From positions 1-36,142 of the forward strand of contig JAGHVE010000058.1 of the NCBI GenBank assembly GCA_018064445.1: a stretch of 36,142 nt of DNA. Reading direction: 5' to 3'. The notes beneath the pieces were generated by a model. The model searched no databases and was not told where the DNA came from. It saw nothing but the letters and a program-made list of their open reading frames with translations. The DNA comes from Candidatus Cacconaster equifaecalis (GTDB lineage Bacteria > Bacteroidota > Bacteroidia > Bacteroidales > UBA932). The translations under genes and the position numbers were made by a program. This document shows, in pieces, positions 5,466 to 26,889 of the stretch (the first letter of the stretch is position 1; each line of letters starts with the position of its first letter).

Positions 5466-7385
5466 ATGAAAAGAACAGCTCTGTTTCTGGGATTCCTGAC
5501 TGGATTCCTTTGTCTCTCATTCAACTCCAATGCCGGCCCGGACACCAGGGTGCTTCTTGACAGCACTTCTGTCAGGATGTTTCCAGACGGGTCAGGGGTA
5601 TTCAACATATATAGGAAAGTCTCTGTCCTCACCCCGCAGGGAGCATTGTCCTACAGGGTACTCAAGTATGATTACGACCCCCTGACCGCCAATGCCTCCT
5701 TCAAATATGCAATTGTCCGCCACAAGGACGGGGCCATTGACTCCGTACGTGTAAGTCAGACACTTGACTATGCCGCACCGGCCCACTTGATTTATTGGGG
5801 CGCGAGGCAGATAATGCTTCAAATCGGGGCGCTGAAAGTCGGGGACACTCTGGAGTATGAGATAGAAAAGAGCGGTTTTTCTTACGCTCTGCTTGCGGGG
5901 GATGACAATGCTGACGGGAGATTCACACCACCGATGAAGGGGGAATTCTACGATATTGTCCCCTTCTGGGTATCGGAACCGACGGACCGCAAGGTTTATT
6001 GCCTGTATGCCCCGTCGTCAAAGGAACTTCAGTTCCAATTCTATAACGGAGTCTGCAGTTCATCGGTCAGATTCACCCCTGACGGTGGAAGGATTTATTC
6101 CTTCGCCGTAAATGACGCCAAACCTTTCAATTCCGAGCCGGGAATGGCCGACCTGTATGATGTTGCCCCGAAGCTTCTGCTGAGCACCACCCGGCAATGG
6201 AAAGAGAAATCCCTGTGGTTCCACGGAATCAATGAGGATTTCGGCAGCTTCTTACCCACTCAGGAGGCCGAAAATCTTGTCAAAGAAATTCTCAAGGGCA
6301 AAAAAGGCGAAATGGAGACAATCTCCGCCCTGACACACTGGGTGGCGGACAATATCCGCTATGCCGGAATATCTATGGGGAAAGGCGAAGGTTACACCCT
6401 GCATCCCCTCAAGATGAACCTCGCAGACCGTTGCGGCGTATGCAAGGATATCGCCGGGACCCTTATAGGTCTGCTCCGGATAGCCGGTTTTGAAGCGTAT
6501 CCGGCTATGACGATGGCCGGAAGCCGCATAGAGAGCATCCCTGCCGACCATTTCAACCATTGCGTGGTTACAGTCAAATTGAAAGACGGGACATATATGC
6601 CACTCGACCCAACCTGGGTGCCATTCACAAGAGAACTCTGGAGCAGTGCGGAACAACAGCAGAATTACCTTCCCGGTATACCGGAGGGGTCTGATCTGCT
6701 GGAAACGCCGGTTGTCGCCGCTGAGAAGAATCCCATAAGCATCGAATCAAACAACATTCTCGATGAAGACGGAACCCTTCACGGCACATTCTCAATCTCC
6801 GCCGAAGGCTGGGCAGACAGAAGCCTTAGAAGCATTTTCACGAGAAATGCCCGCAGGAACTGGAATACCCTGCTTGAGAAGGAATTGCTGGCAATATCCC
6901 CGAAAGCGAAAATGATATCTGTATCATACGGGAAAGACCCTCTTGATTATCAGACGAATCCCGTAACGATTACCTACAAGTTCGAAATTCCGGATTATGC
7001 AGTGGCTGGTGATGGTGAACTGGCCTTCAAGCCCGTAACGGCAAGCGGAATCTTCAGCCGTGTCTTCTCCTTCCGCACACTAGGGGCATACGAAAAAGAC
7101 CGAAACTACAGTTTCAAATGCGATATCGCGAAACTTGTCACCGTCACTGAAAACACCATCGTACCAAAAGGATATCTCCTCGAAGGGGGATCCCGCAAAC
7201 AAAAGAGCGGAGGCACTGACACGTGGTCGGACAACAGCCTGTCGCAGAATTATGCCGGAGTGCATCTCAAACAGAAGATACGGCTTGGAAAGCGCGTGTA
7301 CAGGGCGGAAGACTGGATTGAATTCCGTTCGGCCGTAACAAACTACAACGACTACTGCAATTGGATAATCCTGAAAAAGAAATAG
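5466..7385 (+). CDS. DUF3857 / transglutaminase-like exported protein
   Basis: A 639-residue exported protein with an N-terminal signal peptide (cleaved near FNSNAG). It has an N-terminal DUF3857 beta-sandwich (about 30-230), a central transglutaminase-like cysteine domain (about 265-385), and a C-terminal beta-rich domain resembling DUF3858. The catalytic triad is visible: Cys326 in RCGVCKD, His365 in HFNHC and Asp381 in PLDPTW. Proteins of this type are common in Bacteroidetes, often in pairs as here. Transglutaminase-like domains in bacteria may crosslink, or more often hydrolyse, peptide amide bonds, and the substrate is unknown. It sits in the operon behind the two FKBP lipoproteins and directly before a second DUF3857 protein, which suggests the two proteins work together at the cell surface or in the periplasm. 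Confidence 0.9.
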   Translation: MKRTALFLGFLTGFLCLSFNSNAGPDTRVLLDSTSVRMFPDGSGVFNIYRKVSVLTPQGALSYRVLKYDYDPLTANASFKYAIVRHKDGAIDSVRVSQTLDYAAPAHLIYWGARQIMLQIGALKVGDTLEYEIEKSGFSYALLAGDDNADGRFTPPMKGEFYDIVPFWVSEPTDRKVYCLYAPSSKELQFQFYNGVCSSSVRFTPDGGRIYSFAVNDAKPFNSEPGMADLYDVAPKLLLSTTRQWKEKSLWFHGINEDFGSFLPTQEAENLVKEILKGKKGEMETISALTHWVADNIRYAGISMGKGEGYTLHPLKMNLADRCGVCKDIAGTLIGLLRIAGFEAYPAMTMAGSRIESIPADHFNHCVVTVKLKDGTYMPLDPTWVPFTRELWSSAEQQQNYLPGIPEGSDLLETPVVAAEKNPISIESNNILDEDGTLHGTFSISAEGWADRSLRSIFTRNARRNWNTLLEKELLAISPKAKMISVSYGKDPLDYQTNPVTITYKFEIPDYAVAGDGELAFKPVTASGIFSRVFSFRTLGAYEKDRNYSFKCDIAKLVTVTENTIVPKGYLLEGGSRKQKSGGTDTWSDNSLSQNYAGVHLKQKIRLGKRVYRAEDWIEFRSAVTNYNDYCNWIILKKK

Positions 7386-7387
7386 TG

Positions 7388-8854
7388 ATGAGAAAAGCAT
7401 ATTTGACCATATTGGTTTCCGTAGCATCAGTCAGTCTCAGCCTTGCCGCCCCGAAGGACTGGGATGCGGTGTACAACCATATCTCCAAGGAATACACTCT
7501 CAGTTCCGACGGGTCGCAATCCTGTCGGACGGTCGAGGAGATGACATACTATTCATATCACGCGATTCACGACCTGTATGGCGAAACCTTCATAGACTAC
7601 AATCCCCAATGGCAGGATCTTGTCATAAATTCCTCATACACGAAAAAAGCGGACGGGACAATCGTAATGACACCCGAAAACGCCTTTGTCGGGACACTTC
7701 CCAAATACGCGGAAAACGCGCCTGCGCACAACTCTCTGACAAGACTGGTCGTAGTACATACCGGTCTTGAACCCGGCTGCACGACATATCTTGACTATAC
7801 CATAATCTCCAAGCCGGGATACCTTCCGGAACTGGACATCATCACCCCTGTGGAATACGGGTCTCCTGTTACGGAGTTGACTGTCAGCATCACCGTTCCT
7901 CAGGAAAAACGCCTCCGGTATTCATTTTCAAAAACCGTCCCGGAACCGGCCGTGAGAACTTCAACCGGAAAGACAACTTACTTATGGACACTCAAGAATC
8001 TGGAGGCCGAATCATCCGATCCCGGTGATTATAAGAAATCCCTGTTCACAGCCTCGACTTTTGAATCAGAAGAGTCCGCATTTGCATTCCTGTCATCCCA
8101 GTTCACCAAAACGGAAGAGATAGACAGCACAACAATGGCTTCAATCGAAACAAAAGGATCAGAGAACAATAAAATGATGTCGGTGAGCAGATTCCTGCGT
8201 GAACGGTTCTCAATCGTCCCGATTCCGTTGAAAGCGGCAGGATACAGGCTCAGGAGCATCGTAGAAATTCTGAGAAGCGCTTACGTCACAGCGGATGAGA
8301 GGGAAATGGTCAGATGCGCCCTTCTGAATGCAGCCGGGGTGAAAGCCGAGGTTGTTCCGGTATATTCCTGCGAACCTGTCGGCCTTGGCTCCATCGCAAG
8401 ATTGAGGACTGATGCCGTCTCAGAGAAAGGGATATCCTCATTCGAGAAAAAATTCAGTACAAAGCTGAAATATGGAGAAGGCGATCTGGAGAAAGGGTAT
8501 CTTGTCATTGACCTTCCTTTTGAGAACATGGCGTTCAGCGGGAAGCCTTACACCACCTACCCCTCGACGAGAAGCAATGACCTGAACCTTCACAGAAGTT
8601 TCAATGAGGTACACGAATATGAGATAATCCTTGAAGACGGCCTGATTCCTTCAGGATTGGAGAATCTGAAGACAAGCATATCAAATGATGCCGGCTACTG
8701 CAACGTAACTGCAAGCATAACCGGCAACATCATAACCGTCACAAGAACAATTGAAATCTACAAAGCTACAATCCACCCCGCCGAATATGCGGCATTCCGG
8801 GAACTGATTGCAGCCTGGACTACCGCGAAACGGTTTATTGTAAGGAAGCCATAA
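7388..8854 (+). CDS. DUF3857 protein with a degenerate transglutaminase domain
   Basis: A 488-residue exported protein starting 2 bases after the stop of its paralogue, with a signal peptide MRKAYLTILVSVASVSLSLA. The N-terminal half is a DUF3857 domain (YYSYHAIHDLYGE, then GTLPKYAENAPAHNSLTRLVV). The middle region (about residues 260-350) aligns with the transglutaminase core of the neighbour through ALLNAAGVKAEVVPV, which matches GLLRIAGFEAYPAM. In this alignment the catalytic Cys position falls in TADERE, where Ala stands in its place, and no equivalent of the catalytic His-Asp segment can be found. It therefore looks like a pseudoenzyme, perhaps a binding partner of the active protein. Its 3' end overlaps the convergent adk gene by 20 bases. 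The start is ATG 7388, as the upstream in-frame codons lie inside the previous gene. Confidence 0.85.
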   Translation: MRKAYLTILVSVASVSLSLAAPKDWDAVYNHISKEYTLSSDGSQSCRTVEEMTYYSYHAIHDLYGETFIDYNPQWQDLVINSSYTKKADGTIVMTPENAFVGTLPKYAENAPAHNSLTRLVVVHTGLEPGCTTYLDYTIISKPGYLPELDIITPVEYGSPVTELTVSITVPQEKRLRYSFSKTVPEPAVRTSTGKTTYLWTLKNLEAESSDPGDYKKSLFTASTFESEESAFAFLSSQFTKTEEIDSTTMASIETKGSENNKMMSVSRFLRERFSIVPIPLKAAGYRLRSIVEILRSAYVTADEREMVRCALLNAAGVKAEVVPVYSCEPVGLGSIARLRTDAVSEKGISSFEKKFSTKLKYGEGDLEKGYLVIDLPFENMAFSGKPYTTYPSTRSNDLNLHRSFNEVHEYEIILEDGLIPSGLENLKTSISNDAGYCNVTASITGNIITVTRTIEIYKATIHPAEYAAFRELIAAWTTAKRFIVRKP

Positions 8855-22141: not shown

Positions 22142-22270
22142 TTAACGTTTTCTGCAAACAGATGACAGCGGGCAGCCGGAACACCCCGAACCGCGGTGGA
22201 ACATATGGACCAGAGCTGCCGCAAAGGCGGTCGCAATCACTGCGATGCATATTATCGTCACAGCATTCAT
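22142..22270 (-). CDS. FeoB-associated Cys-rich membrane peptide
   Basis: A 42-residue protein starting at ATG 22270, which overlaps the feoAB stop by 4 bases (ATGA). It has one transmembrane helix (residues about 4-22, VTIICIAVIATAFAAALV). A short basic, Cys-rich tail contains CSGCPLSSVC, matching the pattern of the FeoB-associated family (PF12669), in which CxxC-like cysteines follow a single helix. It probably assists or regulates iron transfer through FeoB, by analogy with FeoC-like factors, but this is not shown. The longer frame upstream lies inside feoAB and is not used. Confidence 0.9.
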   Translation of the reverse strand: MNAVTIICIAVIATAFAAALVHMFHRGSGCSGCPLSSVCRKR

Positions 22271-24561
22271 ATCAGAAGGACAGCAACGGAATATACAGTA
22301 AAAGCCACCAGATAAGCCACGGCGCACTGCAAGATGACCATCCCGACGGCCCACTTGAGTCCGAGTTCACGCTTCACGACGGAAATCGAGGCGACGCAGG
22401 GCGTATAGAGGAGGATGAATACAAGCAGGGAGAGCAAGGCTGCGGGCGGAAGGAACGAGGCGAGAACCGAAGGCCCCTGCCCCAGAAGAACCGACAAGGT
22501 GGACACCACGCTTTCCTTCGCCATGAAACCGGTTATCAGAGCCGTTGACACCTGCCAGTTTCCGAATCCGAGCGGAGTGAACAGAGGAGCGACAAGGCCG
22601 GAAATGACAGCCAGCATACTTCCTTCCGGATCGGAAACCACATTGAGCCGGAAATCAAATGTCTGGAGAAACCAGATGACGATGGATGCCACGAAAATCA
22701 CAGTGAATGCATTCGTGACAAAATCCCGCGCCTTCTCCCAAAGAAGCCTCATCACATTTTTAAGGGACGGCATCCTGTATGGAGGAAGCTCCATCACAAA
22801 CGGCACGGGCTCTCCCTTGAAGATGGTCTTGCGGAAAAGGAAGGCGACCAGAACCCCGCACAATATCCCGAAGAGATAGAGGCCCGGTATCAGGTAAACC
22901 GCCGACCCCGACAGAAAGGCCGCCGCCAGCAGGGTATATACAGGCAATTTGGAGGAGCAACTCATAAAGGGGATAAGCAGAATCGTCATCTTGCGGTCAC
23001 GCACGGAAGGCAGGGTTCGCGTAGCCATTACAGCGGGGACGGTGCATCCGAAACCGGACAGCATAGGAACGATGCTCCCTCCGGAAAGACCTATTTTCCT
23101 GAGCGGTGAATCCATCACAAACGCAATGCGTGCCATATATCCGCTGTCCTCGATAATCGAAAGACAGAAGAAAAGGATTATGATGTAGGGCAGAAAGCAG
23201 AGGACCGTCCCCACACCGTTGAAAATACCGTCAGCCACAAGTGACTGGACGACAGGATTTAGGCCATAGTCCGTCAGCAATGCGTCCGTTTCCGACCAGA
23301 GCCAGCCTATAAAATTCTTGAGAAGATTTTCCAAAGCACTCCCCAGCGGGCCGAACGTCAGGTAAAAAACAGATGCGACTATCAGCACCATTGAAGGAAG
23401 CGCGGTGAAACGACCCGTAAGGATCCTGTCAATCCTCCGGCTGCGCTTCTGCTGACGGCTTTCCACAGGTCTTATCACGGTGGCGTCGCACAGGCGGGAG
23501 ATAAAATCGAACCGCATCTCCGCTATCGCCGCGTTGCGGTCCAGTCCCCTTTCGCTTTCCAGCTGCGATACAAGATGTTCCAGCATCTCCTTCTCATTGC
23601 CGTCAAGTTTCAGAGCCTGAAGGATTGCATTGTCCCCTTCGACAAGTTTGGTAGCGGCGAAACGGCAAGGGATGCCGGCACGGAAAGCGTGGTCCTCGAT
23701 AAGGTGCATTATCGCGTGTATGCAGCGGTGGACGGCTCCACCTCTGGCATCCGAACCGCAGAAGTCATTTCTTCGGGGAGTCTCCCCATATTGGGCAACG
23801 TGGAGCGCGTGCTCCACCAACTCTTCTATCCCCTTGCCTCTGGCTGCCGAAATCGGAATGACAGGCACTCCGAGAATCTCCTCCATCTCATTGACAAGGA
23901 TAGTCCCGCCATTGGCGGAGACCTCATCCATCATATTGAGCGCCACCACCATCGGTATCCCGAGTTCAAGCAGTTGGAGAGTCAGGTAAAGATTGCGTCC
24001 GATATTGGAGGCATCCACTATGTTGATTATGCCGTTGGGCTTTTGTTGGAGGATGAAATCACGGGTGATAACCTCATCATTGCTGAAGGGAGAAAGAGAA
24101 TAGCTCCCGGGCAGATCAGTGACCGAATAAAGGTTCGAACCTTTGATATGGTTGAAGAGAGTGGTCTTGCCGCTGTCCTGATTGCCCACAAGAGCGAAGG
24201 AAATCCGGGTCCCTGCGGGAAGCGGATGTTCGTCCTTCCTGTTGTGATGGATGCCGTCCTCACCCAGACCGGGGTGCGAGGCCGCCTGACGCAAAGGTCT
24301 TTCCTCATCCGGACCGCAGCCAGAATATGCATCGGGCTGCTGAAGGGTTATCTGGATTTTATGGGCGTCCGCCGACCTGAGCGACAGTTCATAGCCGTTA
24401 AGCCGGTATTCGATCGGGTCACCCATAGGCGCAGTCTTGACGAACTCCACTTTCGCGCCCGGGATAATTCCCATATCCAGAAAATGTTGGCGCAAAGCAC
24501 CGTGACCGCCGACGGCGTTGACGATAGCCGTCTGTCCTGCTTTCAGGTCTTTGAGTGTCAT
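22267..24561 (-). CDS. feoB: FeoA-FeoB fusion ferrous iron transporter lacking switch I of the G domain
   Basis: A 764-residue fusion. FeoA (SH3-like) covers about 1-76 (LKDLKAGQTAIV, then LDMGIIPGAKVEF). A His-rich linker spans 84-118. The FeoB G domain starts at about 120, followed by its helical domain and a polytopic membrane region (about 385-764). G1 is GNQDSGKTT (126-134), G3 DLPG (149-152), G4 NMMD (209-212), and SAARGKG is near G5. Between G1 and G3 only about seven residues separate GSN from DLPG, whereas FeoB normally has about 25-30 carrying switch I and the G2 Thr. The usual NPNxGK also reads NQDSGK. The membrane core keeps GFGCTVPA and PFMSCSSKLPVY. The reading frame is intact, so this is an in-frame loss. 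It overlaps lysE (ATGA) upstream and the Cys-rich peptide gene downstream. Confidence 0.92.
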   Translation of the reverse strand: MTLKDLKAGQTAIVNAVGGHGALRQHFLDMGIIPGAKVEFVKTAPMGDPIEYRLNGYELSLRSADAHKIQITLQQPDAYSGCGPDEERPLRQAASHPGLGEDGIHHNRKDEHPLPAGTRISFALVGNQDSGKTTLFNHIKGSNLYSVTDLPGSYSLSPFSNDEVITRDFILQQKPNGIINIVDASNIGRNLYLTLQLLELGIPMVVALNMMDEVSANGGTILVNEMEEILGVPVIPISAARGKGIEELVEHALHVAQYGETPRRNDFCGSDARGGAVHRCIHAIMHLIEDHAFRAGIPCRFAATKLVEGDNAILQALKLDGNEKEMLEHLVSQLESERGLDRNAAIAEMRFDFISRLCDATVIRPVESRQQKRSRRIDRILTGRFTALPSMVLIVASVFYLTFGPLGSALENLLKNFIGWLWSETDALLTDYGLNPVVQSLVADGIFNGVGTVLCFLPYIIILFFCLSIIEDSGYMARIAFVMDSPLRKIGLSGGSIVPMLSGFGCTVPAVMATRTLPSVRDRKMTILLIPFMSCSSKLPVYTLLAAAFLSGSAVYLIPGLYLFGILCGVLVAFLFRKTIFKGEPVPFVMELPPYRMPSLKNVMRLLWEKARDFVTNAFTVIFVASIVIWFLQTFDFRLNVVSDPEGSMLAVISGLVAPLFTPLGFGNWQVSTALITGFMAKESVVSTLSVLLGQGPSVLASFLPPAALLSLLVFILLYTPCVASISVVKRELGLKWAVGMVILQCAVAYLVAFTVYSVAVLLI
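24129..24144. repeat. Perfect 16-base palindrome inside feoAB at the missing switch I segment
   Basis: AAAGGTTCGAACCTTT is its own reverse complement. It encodes the residues around KGSNL, exactly where the FeoB G domain is short. It could be a scar or hairpin-promoted deletion point, a regulatory site, or chance. Confidence 0.6.
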
Positions 24562-25214
24562 ATTTCCATCAGTCTGATAATCCCTTGTATTGCGGATACG
24601 GCGCCAAGCACTGCGATGACCACGCCGGAAATCCTGTTTATCACTATCAACTGCCGTAATCTGAATTTCTTACGGAAGAGATTGATCACCGAAGTGAACG
24701 CCACCCACCACACATTCGTTCCTATTATCACGCCCAAAATGGATGACACAACCCCCGAATAATATGACGGCGCCGCATCTATGTCAAGGTGGAAGAACGC
24801 CACCAGACCGAGCATCAGGACCAGTGCCCCCGGATTGGCCAGGGTCATCAGGAATCCCTGAGATGCACCCTGAAGCATTCCGTTCTCAAAGAAACCCTTC
24901 TTCATCTGGTTCTTCTGGCGTATCTCCGCGACAGGATTGGTCAGTATGATACCGATTCCTATGATCAGTATGATTATGCCTCCCACTACCAGAACCCAGG
25001 CTTTGTGCTCGTCGAGGAACTGACTTATGAAGGCAATCGACAGAACCGATATGGCAGCGAACAGAGTATCTCCGAAAGAAGAGCCGAAACCCACGGAATA
25101 TCCTGTTTTCCAGCCCCGGCTGAGTGTCTTCTGCAGGGCCAGGACAGCGATGGGCCCCAACGGCATGGCGGCACAGAGGCCGACCAATATCGACTTGAGA
25201 AATATCTCTATCAT
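24558..25214 (-). CDS. LysE/RhtB-family exporter
   Basis: A 218-residue inner-membrane protein with about six transmembrane segments, matching the LysE translocator family of amino acid and small-molecule exporters. The N-terminal motif IEIFLKSILVGLCAAMPLGP, with the conserved PLGP turn, is followed by GWKTGYSVGFGSSFGD. A central positively charged loop spans about 95-110. The repeated half contains MTLANPGALVLMLG (about residues 125-138). The exported compound cannot be told. It is the first gene of the feo operon: its stop overlaps the feoAB start by 4 bases (ATGA), so the two are made together. Confidence 0.9.
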   Translation of the reverse strand: MIEIFLKSILVGLCAAMPLGPIAVLALQKTLSRGWKTGYSVGFGSSFGDTLFAAISVLSIAFISQFLDEHKAWVLVVGGIIILIIGIGIILTNPVAEIRQKNQMKKGFFENGMLQGASQGFLMTLANPGALVLMLGLVAFFHLDIDAAPSYYSGVVSSILGVIIGTNVWWVAFTSVINLFRKKFRLRQLIVINRISGVVIAVLGAVSAIQGIIRLMEI

Positions 25215-25238
25215 TGACTGTCAATCCGGTTCAATCTG

Positions 25239-25246
25239 CAAATATA
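25239..25246 (-). promoter_or_regulatory. -7 element of the lysE-feoAB operon
   Basis: TATATTTG on the minus strand fits TAnnTTTG. No -33 TTG lies at the usual distance. Initiation near 25235 leaves about 20 bases before ATG 25214. I saw no obvious Fur-box palindrome in this 73-base divergent region. Confidence 0.5.
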
Positions 25247-25258
25247 GCTTTTTTTTGT

Positions 25259-25266
25259 TATATTTG
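25259..25266 (+). promoter_or_regulatory. -7 element of lnt
   Basis: TATATTTG on the plus strand, identical in sequence to the opposing lysE element 12 bases away. Initiation near 25270 leaves about 18 bases before ATG 25288. Confidence 0.5.
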
Positions 25267-25287
25267 GGCATCTCTTACCGGACGCCT

Positions 25288-26889
25288 ATGAGTGGAAAAT
25301 ACTTCAAACCGCTGATTCCCGCAGCCGCTTTCGCGCTGCTTATGGGAACCCCCTATCTGGTTCCGCACACAGGTTTCCTGTCATTGTTTGCTTTTGTCCC
25401 GCTGTTCCTGATGGCCGACAAATTCGTCAGAGAAGGGAAAAGACACACCTTCCTTCCCTACTATGCGGCGTTCCTCCTGTTCAACATTATTACCACCTGG
25501 TGGATATGGAACGTATCGGCAGCCGGAGCGGTGGCGGCCATAATCCTCAACGCCTTGCAGATGACCGTAATCTTCGCATTGTCGGTACGGGCGGAAAAGG
25601 CAATCGGAAAAGTATCGTCGCTGCTGTTCTTCGCAGTGTTCTGGACAGCCTGGGAACATATCTATTATGAGATAGAAATCTCGTGGCCCTGGCTTGCACT
25701 GGGCAACGCCTTCGCAGGCTCCATCAAATGCGTACAATGGTACGAGATTCTCGGCACCACCGGAGGCACTCTCTGGATTCTGCTATGCAACATCGCGATA
25801 TTTCTGTCCATCACGACAGAGGGACAACGAAGGAAAAAGATTTGCACCACAATCGCAATATCCCTGACGGCCATTCCTCTCATTGCATCTTTCCTGCGTT
25901 ACTGTACGTTCAACGAGCAGGGAGAAAAGATGGAAATCGCCGTAATCCAGCCGAATGTCGACCCTTTCGGCAAATATGGTGTCATACGGCAGGACTCCCT
26001 TGACAGACTCCTGCTCAGACTTGCAGATGAGGCTGTCACTCCGGCAACGGAACTTGTGGTGACCCCCGAGACATTCACATACGGCATTGATATCGACAAT
26101 CCTACGAATCATCCTTCCATATCGGCATATATGGGCTGGCTCCGATCCAAAGGCGATTTGAAAATGCTTCTGGGAGCTCTTTCGACACGTTTCTACACGA
26201 CGGCATTGAAGCCCACCAAAAGTGCGAGACATATCGGAGAGAGAAAATGGTATGACGCATACAACACGGCGATGGTCCTTGACTCGGCGGGTGTTCTCGG
26301 GTCTTATTTCAAGTCCAAACTGGTCCCCGGCGTGGAGATTGCCCCTTATGCCAATGCCTTGCCGTTCCTCGGAAAGATTCTTGAGTTATTCGGAGGATCA
26401 GCGACAAGCTACGCCACCCAGGACAAGATGGAGGCAATCCCCTGCGGAAACGGCCGGAAAGTCGGGACTATGATATGTTATGAGTCTATCTACGGAGACT
26501 ATTGCCGGGATGCAGTCAGAGATGGTGCAGGCTTTATGACCGTGATGACAAACGACGGCTGGTGGGGCGACACGCCGGGATACCGGCAGCATTTCAGCTA
26601 TGCCGCCTTGAGAGCGGTTGAATACAGGAGAGATGTCATCCAGGCCGCGAACACCGGAACATCCGGCCTGATAAGCCAGAGGGGGGACATTGCTCTGTCG
26701 ACACAGTGGTGGACGGAACTCTCGTTCCCGGCACAAGTACACTACAGCACAGACATCACCCCTTTTGCACAATACGGGGACGTTGTCGGCAGGCTCTGCT
26801 CGATAGCCTTAATCCTCTGCCTTATTGCTATCTGTCTCTCGAAGGGTAAGAGATTCTCGTATGGTAGATATGCTGCAGATAAATCTTGA
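25288..26889 (+). CDS. lnt: Apolipoprotein N-acyltransferase
   Basis: A 533-residue inner-membrane enzyme that adds the third acyl chain to the N-terminal Cys of lipoproteins. The N-terminal part (about 1-215) has six to seven hydrophobic segments, with the conserved EISWPWLALGNAF at about 130-143. The nitrilase domain (about 220-500) carries the Glu-Lys-Cys triad: Glu261 in VVTPETF, Lys344 in SKLVPG and Cys397 in MICYES. A final hydrophobic helix (ICSIALILCLIAICL-like, about 500-520) precedes a basic tail. The start is ATG 25288 behind the promoter element. The last 62 bases overlap the convergent pgpH gene. The many lipoproteins encoded in this window would be its substrates. Confidence 0.94.
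   Translation: MSGKYFKPLIPAAAFALLMGTPYLVPHTGFLSLFAFVPLFLMADKFVREGKRHTFLPYYAAFLLFNIITTWWIWNVSAAGAVAAIILNALQMTVIFALSVRAEKAIGKVSSLLFFAVFWTAWEHIYYEIEISWPWLALGNAFAGSIKCVQWYEILGTTGGTLWILLCNIAIFLSITTEGQRRKKICTTIAISLTAIPLIASFLRYCTFNEQGEKMEIAVIQPNVDPFGKYGVIRQDSLDRLLLRLADEAVTPATELVVTPETFTYGIDIDNPTNHPSISAYMGWLRSKGDLKMLLGALSTRFYTTALKPTKSARHIGERKWYDAYNTAMVLDSAGVLGSYFKSKLVPGVEIAPYANALPFLGKILELFGGSATSYATQDKMEAIPCGNGRKVGTMICYESIYGDYCRDAVRDGAGFMTVMTNDGWWGDTPGYRQHFSYAALRAVEYRRDVIQAANTGTSGLISQRGDIALSTQWWTELSFPAQVHYSTDITPFAQYGDVVGRLCSIALILCLIAICLSKGKRFSYGRYAADKS

Follow-up and report, generated by a model that had tools for sequence, protein, structure and literature searches.

A FeoA-FeoB fusion lacking switch I of its G domain in two species of a Bacteroidales genus

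Here, we identify feoAB of Candidatus Cacconaster equifaecalis, encoded in a stretch of 36,142 nucleotides that was analyzed as a whole (the window), as a FeoA-FeoB fusion whose G domain has lost switch I and strand beta-2, and in which the P-loop Asn that serves as a K+ ligand is replaced by Asp. The deletion is inherited in two species, between which the gene is under purifying selection. We consider it probable that feoAB is a working Fe2+ permease in which the G domain is a non-switching module. Judged by sequence, two more FeoB types of the genus are GTPase-less in an even more extreme form.

Results

feoAB (22267..24561, minus strand) is a 764-aa ORF in which a Pfam search matched FeoA, FeoB_N, FeoB_Cyto, FeoB_C, and Gate, bearing out the fusion named in the original prediction, and which scores 508 bits against the TIGR00437 feoB equivalog (cut-off, 315.65). 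The protein comprises the FeoA domain (24346..24561, minus; PF04023, 74.7 bits), an N-terminal G domain of the FeoB type (residues 118-257; 23791..24210, minus), the FeoB cytosolic helical domain (residues 276-362; 23476..23736, minus; PF17910), and a membrane core (residues 363-764; 22270..23475, minus) that is also of the FeoB type, with Gate PF07670, FeoB_C PF07664, and the GFGC and SCS motifs (GFGCTVP and MSCSSK). Within the G domain, which reads GNQDSGKTTLFNHIKGSNLYSVTDLPG without frameshift or stop, the G1 motif or P-loop GNQDSGKTT (residues 126-134; 24160..24186, minus) has Asp at the K+-ligand position, residue 129; G3 DLPG (residues 149-152; 24106..24117, minus) and G4 NMMD (residues 209-212; 23926..23937, minus) are invariant in alignment A2, and alignment places the G5 region SAA at residues 238-240 (23842..23850, minus). 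The net loss is 22 aa (66 bp), in frame, and the alignments locate it at a junction at residues 143-148 (24118..24135, minus), where switch I and strand beta-2 are missing. G1, G3, G4, G5, FeoA, the helical domain, and the pore motifs all remain.

Several lines of evidence set this G domain apart from those of its relatives. First, the GKT-to-DLPG (G1-G3) spacing is 15 aa in the window protein and in its counterpart in a second species of the genus (G020), whereas it is 37 or 38 aa in all 107 other G1-bearing FeoB loci (110 loci were compared, 109 with G1; L020 ends before G1) and 38 aa in 30 of 30 further relatives from the order. Second, the P-loop Asn is present in the same 107 loci and 30 order relatives and is changed to Asp in the window and G020 only; the nine P-loop codons of these two genes show three synonymous and no amino-acid differences. 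Both the in-frame loss of switch I and the loss of the K+-binding Asn had been predicted originally. The prediction had also put the usual distance from GSN to DLPG at 25-30 residues, absent here; with 27 residues in L003-type relatives and 5 in the window protein, that claim stands with its scale corrected. Third, the Pfam FeoB_N alignment starts only at model position 49 in the window protein and G020. A query with a normal G domain matched 167 of 198 sampled genomes of the phylum (E 1e-10), and among the matches listed all but that of the window run from query residue 1-5 to 116-117, i.e., from G1 to G4; the listed match in G139 is ∼5 aa shorter. Open frames of 254-302 aa with a FeoB-like G domain, as if free-standing, were seen in several phylum genomes.

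Switch I/G2 with its Mg2+ threonine is absent from the window protein and from that of G020, while all 107 other loci have this segment, and the signature of K+-activated GTPases is lacking, the P-loop Asn being replaced by Asp and the switch I K+ ligands deleted. An AlphaFold2 model and a fold search predict that the FeoB G fold is kept minus switch I and beta-2, as a domain of five strands. The window G domain would in this way retain the GTPase fold, which is one criterion for a pseudoGTPase; a lack of GTP binding or hydrolysis is suggested by the missing switch I only, with G1, G3, G4, and G5 still in place.

The start of a 42-aa Cys-rich peptide (22142..22270, minus) overlaps the feoAB stop. 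It has no Pfam match and is, by position only, a putative FeoB-associated Cys-rich peptide; it shares 52% identity with its G020 counterpart, far below the neighboring genes. On the other side, a LysE-type exporter gene (24558..25214, minus; PF01810) overlaps the feoAB start by ATGA, and lysE adjoins feoAB also in G020, G030, and G002. The Lnt ORF (25027-26889, plus) overlaps lysE on the opposite strand, and the aligned G020 copy meets a stop; therefore, translation of Lnt probably begins at a more internal site.

In G020, the gene at the syntenic locus shares both the deletion and the Asp. Of 28 window ORFs compared with the G020 contig that bears it, feoAB, eight neighbors, and the 42-aa peptide (10 in all) had a counterpart; the other 18 had none there. 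The locus with feoAB, lysE, lnt, 7TM-HD, and gyrB is also common to G030 and G002, both of which have switch I. The two FeoAB proteins are 94% identical and their genes 88.6% identical in DNA, with a dN/dS of 0.063 (dS 0.50, dN 0.032) overall, 0.045 in the G domain, and 0.041 in the membrane part. The eight neighbor genes gave dN/dS values of 0.018-0.147, and the 42-aa peptide 0.141 at a dS of 2.9, which is near saturation. Selection on feoAB is, thus, ordinary and comparable to that on its neighbors, arguing that the gene is not decaying, as had been predicted from its otherwise intact appearance.

These data bear on the idea that the deletion is an assembly error or marks a young pseudogene. 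Both genomes are drafts, of 161 and ∼60 contigs, and the segment is normal in the closest relatives besides these two. However, an assembly error is contradicted by G020, since the same deletion would have had to arise in two species at this DNA divergence, and the marks of a pseudogene, i.e., relaxed selection, stops, and frameshifts, were not found. We rejected both explanations; either is next to impossible. An assembly error, which would have refuted the original prediction, is in this way discounted by the second species.

Type 2, the first of the further FeoB types, is present in nine genomes (G004, G007, G008, G014, G021, G023, G026, G028, and G260; loci L122-L129 and L170) as open frames of 670-702 aa (663 aa from ATG in two examined). 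All nine lack the P-loop and have Thr or Ser in place of the G4 Asn, mostly with the Asp kept, and G3 DxxG is found only in G008 (DLTG). In an alignment of five, 17 columns that follow the place of the P-loop, covering the remainder of alpha-1 plus switch I, are missing, as are nine switch II residues. All nine proteins start with Met followed by C-x3-C-x2-C, a motif found in none of 39 canonical FeoBs, of which 37 belong to other genera and two to this genus. dN/dS values of 0.07-0.13 in the membrane part, 0.07-0.27 in the helical part, and 0.075-0.22 in the pseudo-G part indicate purifying selection.

Type 3 is present in seven genomes of the genus (G011, G013, G016, G019, G025, G258, and G259, the last having lost its N-terminal side at a contig end and being assigned by 91% identity). 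The type 3 loci are L117-L121, L162, L165 (cut), L224, and L225. In the genus, these open frames of 416-446 aa have no G domain and have a short N terminus with 3-7 His; pairs of them have dN/dS values of 0.037-0.045, again indicating purifying selection. In each of the 8 loci read, the gene is flanked by dxs and tuf. At L117 (G016), dxs is split (6295-7593 and 7643-8098, minus) by a frameshift or assembly slip; it is intact in G013. G258 (C83, C100) has two FeoBs: one is G-less, and the other, a distant protein of 700 aa, matches FeoB_N over the full length. Two type 3 proteins pass TIGR00437 with 348 bits (cut-off, 315.65), and automatic annotation can, therefore, hide such G-less proteins by calling them FeoB. 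FeoA was sought in six type 2 or type 3 genomes, three of them of type 2, and found in none, and it was found in all five others; loss of FeoA alone is not special, as FeoB is reported to occur without FeoA in 59 of 326 archaeal genomes (PMC8351635).

In a tree of the membrane core (INDEPENDENCE), the window type falls in the Clostridia-like FeoAB branch, and types 2 and 3 fall in the Bacteroidales FeoB branch, separated from the window type by branches with 100/100 support. In a scan of named sequences, the best 80 of 584 confirmed relatives are, by title, mostly from Clostridia, and none exceeds 62% identity. In the tree, the window protein and G020 group together with 100/100 support, and this clade nests with G030 and G002 (100/96) and with G035 (99/97). 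Because canonical FeoBs are present in both branches, the GTPase was damaged at least twice, and the window type arose independently of types 2 and 3. Type 2 is one clade (99/99), as is type 3 (100/100); their joint branch has only 90/79, and we do not claim type 2 as the ancestor of type 3. In a gyrB tree of 35 of the 40 genus genomes, the window type is again one clade (100/100) and type 3 is one group with weak support (74/26); type 2 is scattered, with at least four changes forced by the starred branches, so that transfer or repeated loss is involved. The stem of the window type is 0.53 in the membrane-core tree and 0.15 in the gyrB tree. Faster membrane-core evolution after the deletion was considered and rejected, since the gyrB stem is also long and the ratio of ∼3.5 is near those of G030 (∼2.6) and G002 (∼3.1).

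We tallied the 40 genus genomes by PF02421 coverage, type 3 search, and loci. In 21 of 40, FeoB_N is matched over a span that starts at model position 2 and reaches at least 148; in two of these (G023 and G258), type 2 or type 3 is present in addition. Two genomes have the window type only, eight type 2 only, and six type 3 only (one cut at the relevant end). FeoB was not seen in two of the 40 (G005 and G024), and the FeoB of one (G022) is cut and not assignable to a type. Hence in 16 of 40 genomes, drafts that are 51 to 98% complete, the only FeoB seen is one whose GTPase is damaged or missing; completeness is highest in G260 (98%), G020 (96%), G028 (93%), and G025 (92%).

Outside the genus, the type 3 search of 393 order genomes gave 27 matches (E 1e-118), 25 of which are frames of 781-889 aa. 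The two short ones are in a sister genus (G460, 471; G541, 457), and G460, a single contig and 99% complete, carries a G-less FeoB; no PF02421 match exceeds 53 bits in G460 and G541, while three other genomes of the family reach at least 200 bits. A pseudo-G query matched 212 of 344 order genomes with a best identity of 40%. The matches listed mostly start at query residue 53-57 and a few at 14-49; the 30 that were read are canonical, and no type 2 protein was seen outside the genus among the matches listed from these 344 genomes. Nor was a free-standing FeoB G domain that might act in trans found among the PF02421 matches listed for genomes of the window type and of types 2 and 3. Besides the genomes' own FeoB, these matches score at most 62 bits in frames of mostly ∼300 or 440 aa, and we read them, by size and score, as Era and Der.

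Discussion

How GTP acts in FeoB is a puzzle: the G domain is reported to be needed, yet hydrolysis is too slow to power transport, which is why a role of FeoB as a GTP-gated channel has been put forward (PMC4847171). In Streptococcus thermophilus NFeoB, switch I contributes Thr35 for Mg2+ binding and Gly29 and Trp31 for K+ binding (PMC3153494). The T35A substitution alone brings kcat below 0.04 per min in both NaCl and KCl, where the wild type has 0.12 and 2.6, respectively. It also slows mant-GTP association (6.8 instead of 24.0 per s) and leaves GDP release unchanged, and mutation of Asn11 abolishes K+ activation (PMC3153494). The window protein lacks both elements, i.e., switch I with the Thr35 equivalent and the P-loop Asn equivalent to Asn11.

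We suggest that a single in-frame deletion in the ancestor of the two species removed the 22 aa of switch I and edge strand beta-2, and that the P-loop K+ ligand turned to Asp. In the model, the five remaining strands close up as beta1-alpha1-beta3, so that the domain should still fold. Guanine nucleotide would probably still be held by G1, G3, G4, and G5, with GDP likelier than GTP. Because the Mg2+ threonine, the K+ ligands, and the attacking water could not be placed, GTP would be hydrolyzed hardly or not at all. Fe2+ would pass down its gradient through the CNT-like pore, and gating would be left to FeoA and the helical domain or to the metal itself rather than to a GTP cycle.

Several points speak against this proposal. 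In those other species that were examined, transport is reported to depend on catalysis by NFeoB (PMC10353542), and the conservation of G1, G3, G4, and G5 between the window species and G020 suggests that nucleotide still matters. NFeoAB of Bacteroides fragilis retains the Asn residues and is itself a very slow GTPase without K+ stimulation (PMC8980893), so that GTP hydrolysis may have been poor in the ancestral fusion already. A single FeoB match is present in the window genome (G000) and likewise in G020; no second, normal FeoB and no Nramp were found in either, and a FecCD-type permease is present in G020 and was not found in G000. Because the window genome is 88.6% complete, a second FeoB could have escaped notice there, less so in G020.

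The original prediction offered two readings, abnormal GTP hydrolysis or use of GTP as a binding switch only. By analogy with T35A, the former is to be expected. The latter, a non-hydrolyzing switch that binds GTP and GDP and whose exchange opens and closes the pore, fits with G1, G3, G4, and G5 being intact and identical in both species, with a mostly kept switch II, and with retention of FeoA, which in B. fragilis stabilizes the GTP-bound form (PMC8980893). However, the deletion takes away both the gamma-phosphate sensor, switch I, and the Mg2+ threonine, loss of this threonine alone slows mant-GTP association as described above, and the P-loop Asp would add negative charge beside the phosphates and should disfavor GTP. 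Such a switch is, therefore, the less supported of the two readings, and we regard it as unlikely. Another route to GTP hydrolysis, with a loop of FeoA, the helical domain, or a neighboring protomer supplying switch I in trans, is suggested by the fused and conserved FeoA and by the trimers formed by Pseudomonas aeruginosa FeoB (PMC4847171). Inspection of the aligned window protein revealed no switch I-like segment elsewhere, and the K+ ligand Asn is lost as well, making this route quite improbable. It is even more doubtful that the protein was repurposed as a sensor or a carrier of another metal and no longer imports iron. Seven near-invariant membrane residues, among them S455C, F466C, A537S, and N594P, are changed, but the GFGC and SCS motifs are kept, the TIGR00437 score is far above the cut-off (although this model also passes G-domain-less FeoBs), and the window genome has no other FeoB or Nramp that we could find. 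We retain the proposal of a permease with a non-switching G domain.

We tentatively extend this proposal to the family, where it is a possibility somewhat short of even: FeoB may have become GTP independent at least twice, once in the Clostridia-type FeoAB without switch I and once in a second lineage that lost the P-loop and G4 Asn or the whole G domain, together with FeoA, and in which the N-terminal CxxxCxxC (type 2) or His-bearing (type 3) motif may gate the pore by metal sensing. If so, FeoB would at heart be a metal-gated Fe2+ channel for which GTP control is optional. FeoBs that seem incompetent as GTPases, that are kept by selection, and that are often the only one seen in the genome make the question of GTP directly testable; the window FeoB and the relatives in which more of the motor is lost are natural tests of the need for GTP. 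Among the matches listed from a mostly open literature, titles and abstract openings contained no report of a FeoB that lacks switch I or the G domain, and the passages of PMC8749426 considered here cover FeoC, gene order, and transfer with G-domain loss unmentioned.

Among known systems, BfFeoAB of B. fragilis resembles the window protein in that FeoA is fused to FeoB; however, BfNFeoAB is reported to keep the conserved Asn residues and to hydrolyze GTP (PMC8980893), whereas both the P-loop Asn and switch I are missing from the window protein. Compared to S. thermophilus NFeoB (3tah, 3b1y, and 3ss8), the window protein is naturally without all of switch I and beta-2. Like NFeoB of Gallionella capsiferriformans (3w5i and 3w5j), the window protein is a natural FeoB with an abnormal cytosolic part. 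The Gallionella protein has no helical domain and retains its GTPase domain; the window protein is the opposite, keeping the helical domain with a damaged GTPase. The GTPase-like domains of p190RhoGAP and the dynein light intermediate chain are described as sharing a GTPase-like fold without a normal cycle, reminiscent of the window protein. Both are eukaryotic regulators and, to our knowledge, neither is fused to a transporter pore. In types 2 and 3, too, the GTPase of a FeoB under purifying selection is damaged or absent; these are of the Bacteroidales type, with a G domain that is P-loop-less or absent and with FeoA not found, whereas the window protein keeps FeoA together with G1, G3, G4, and G5.
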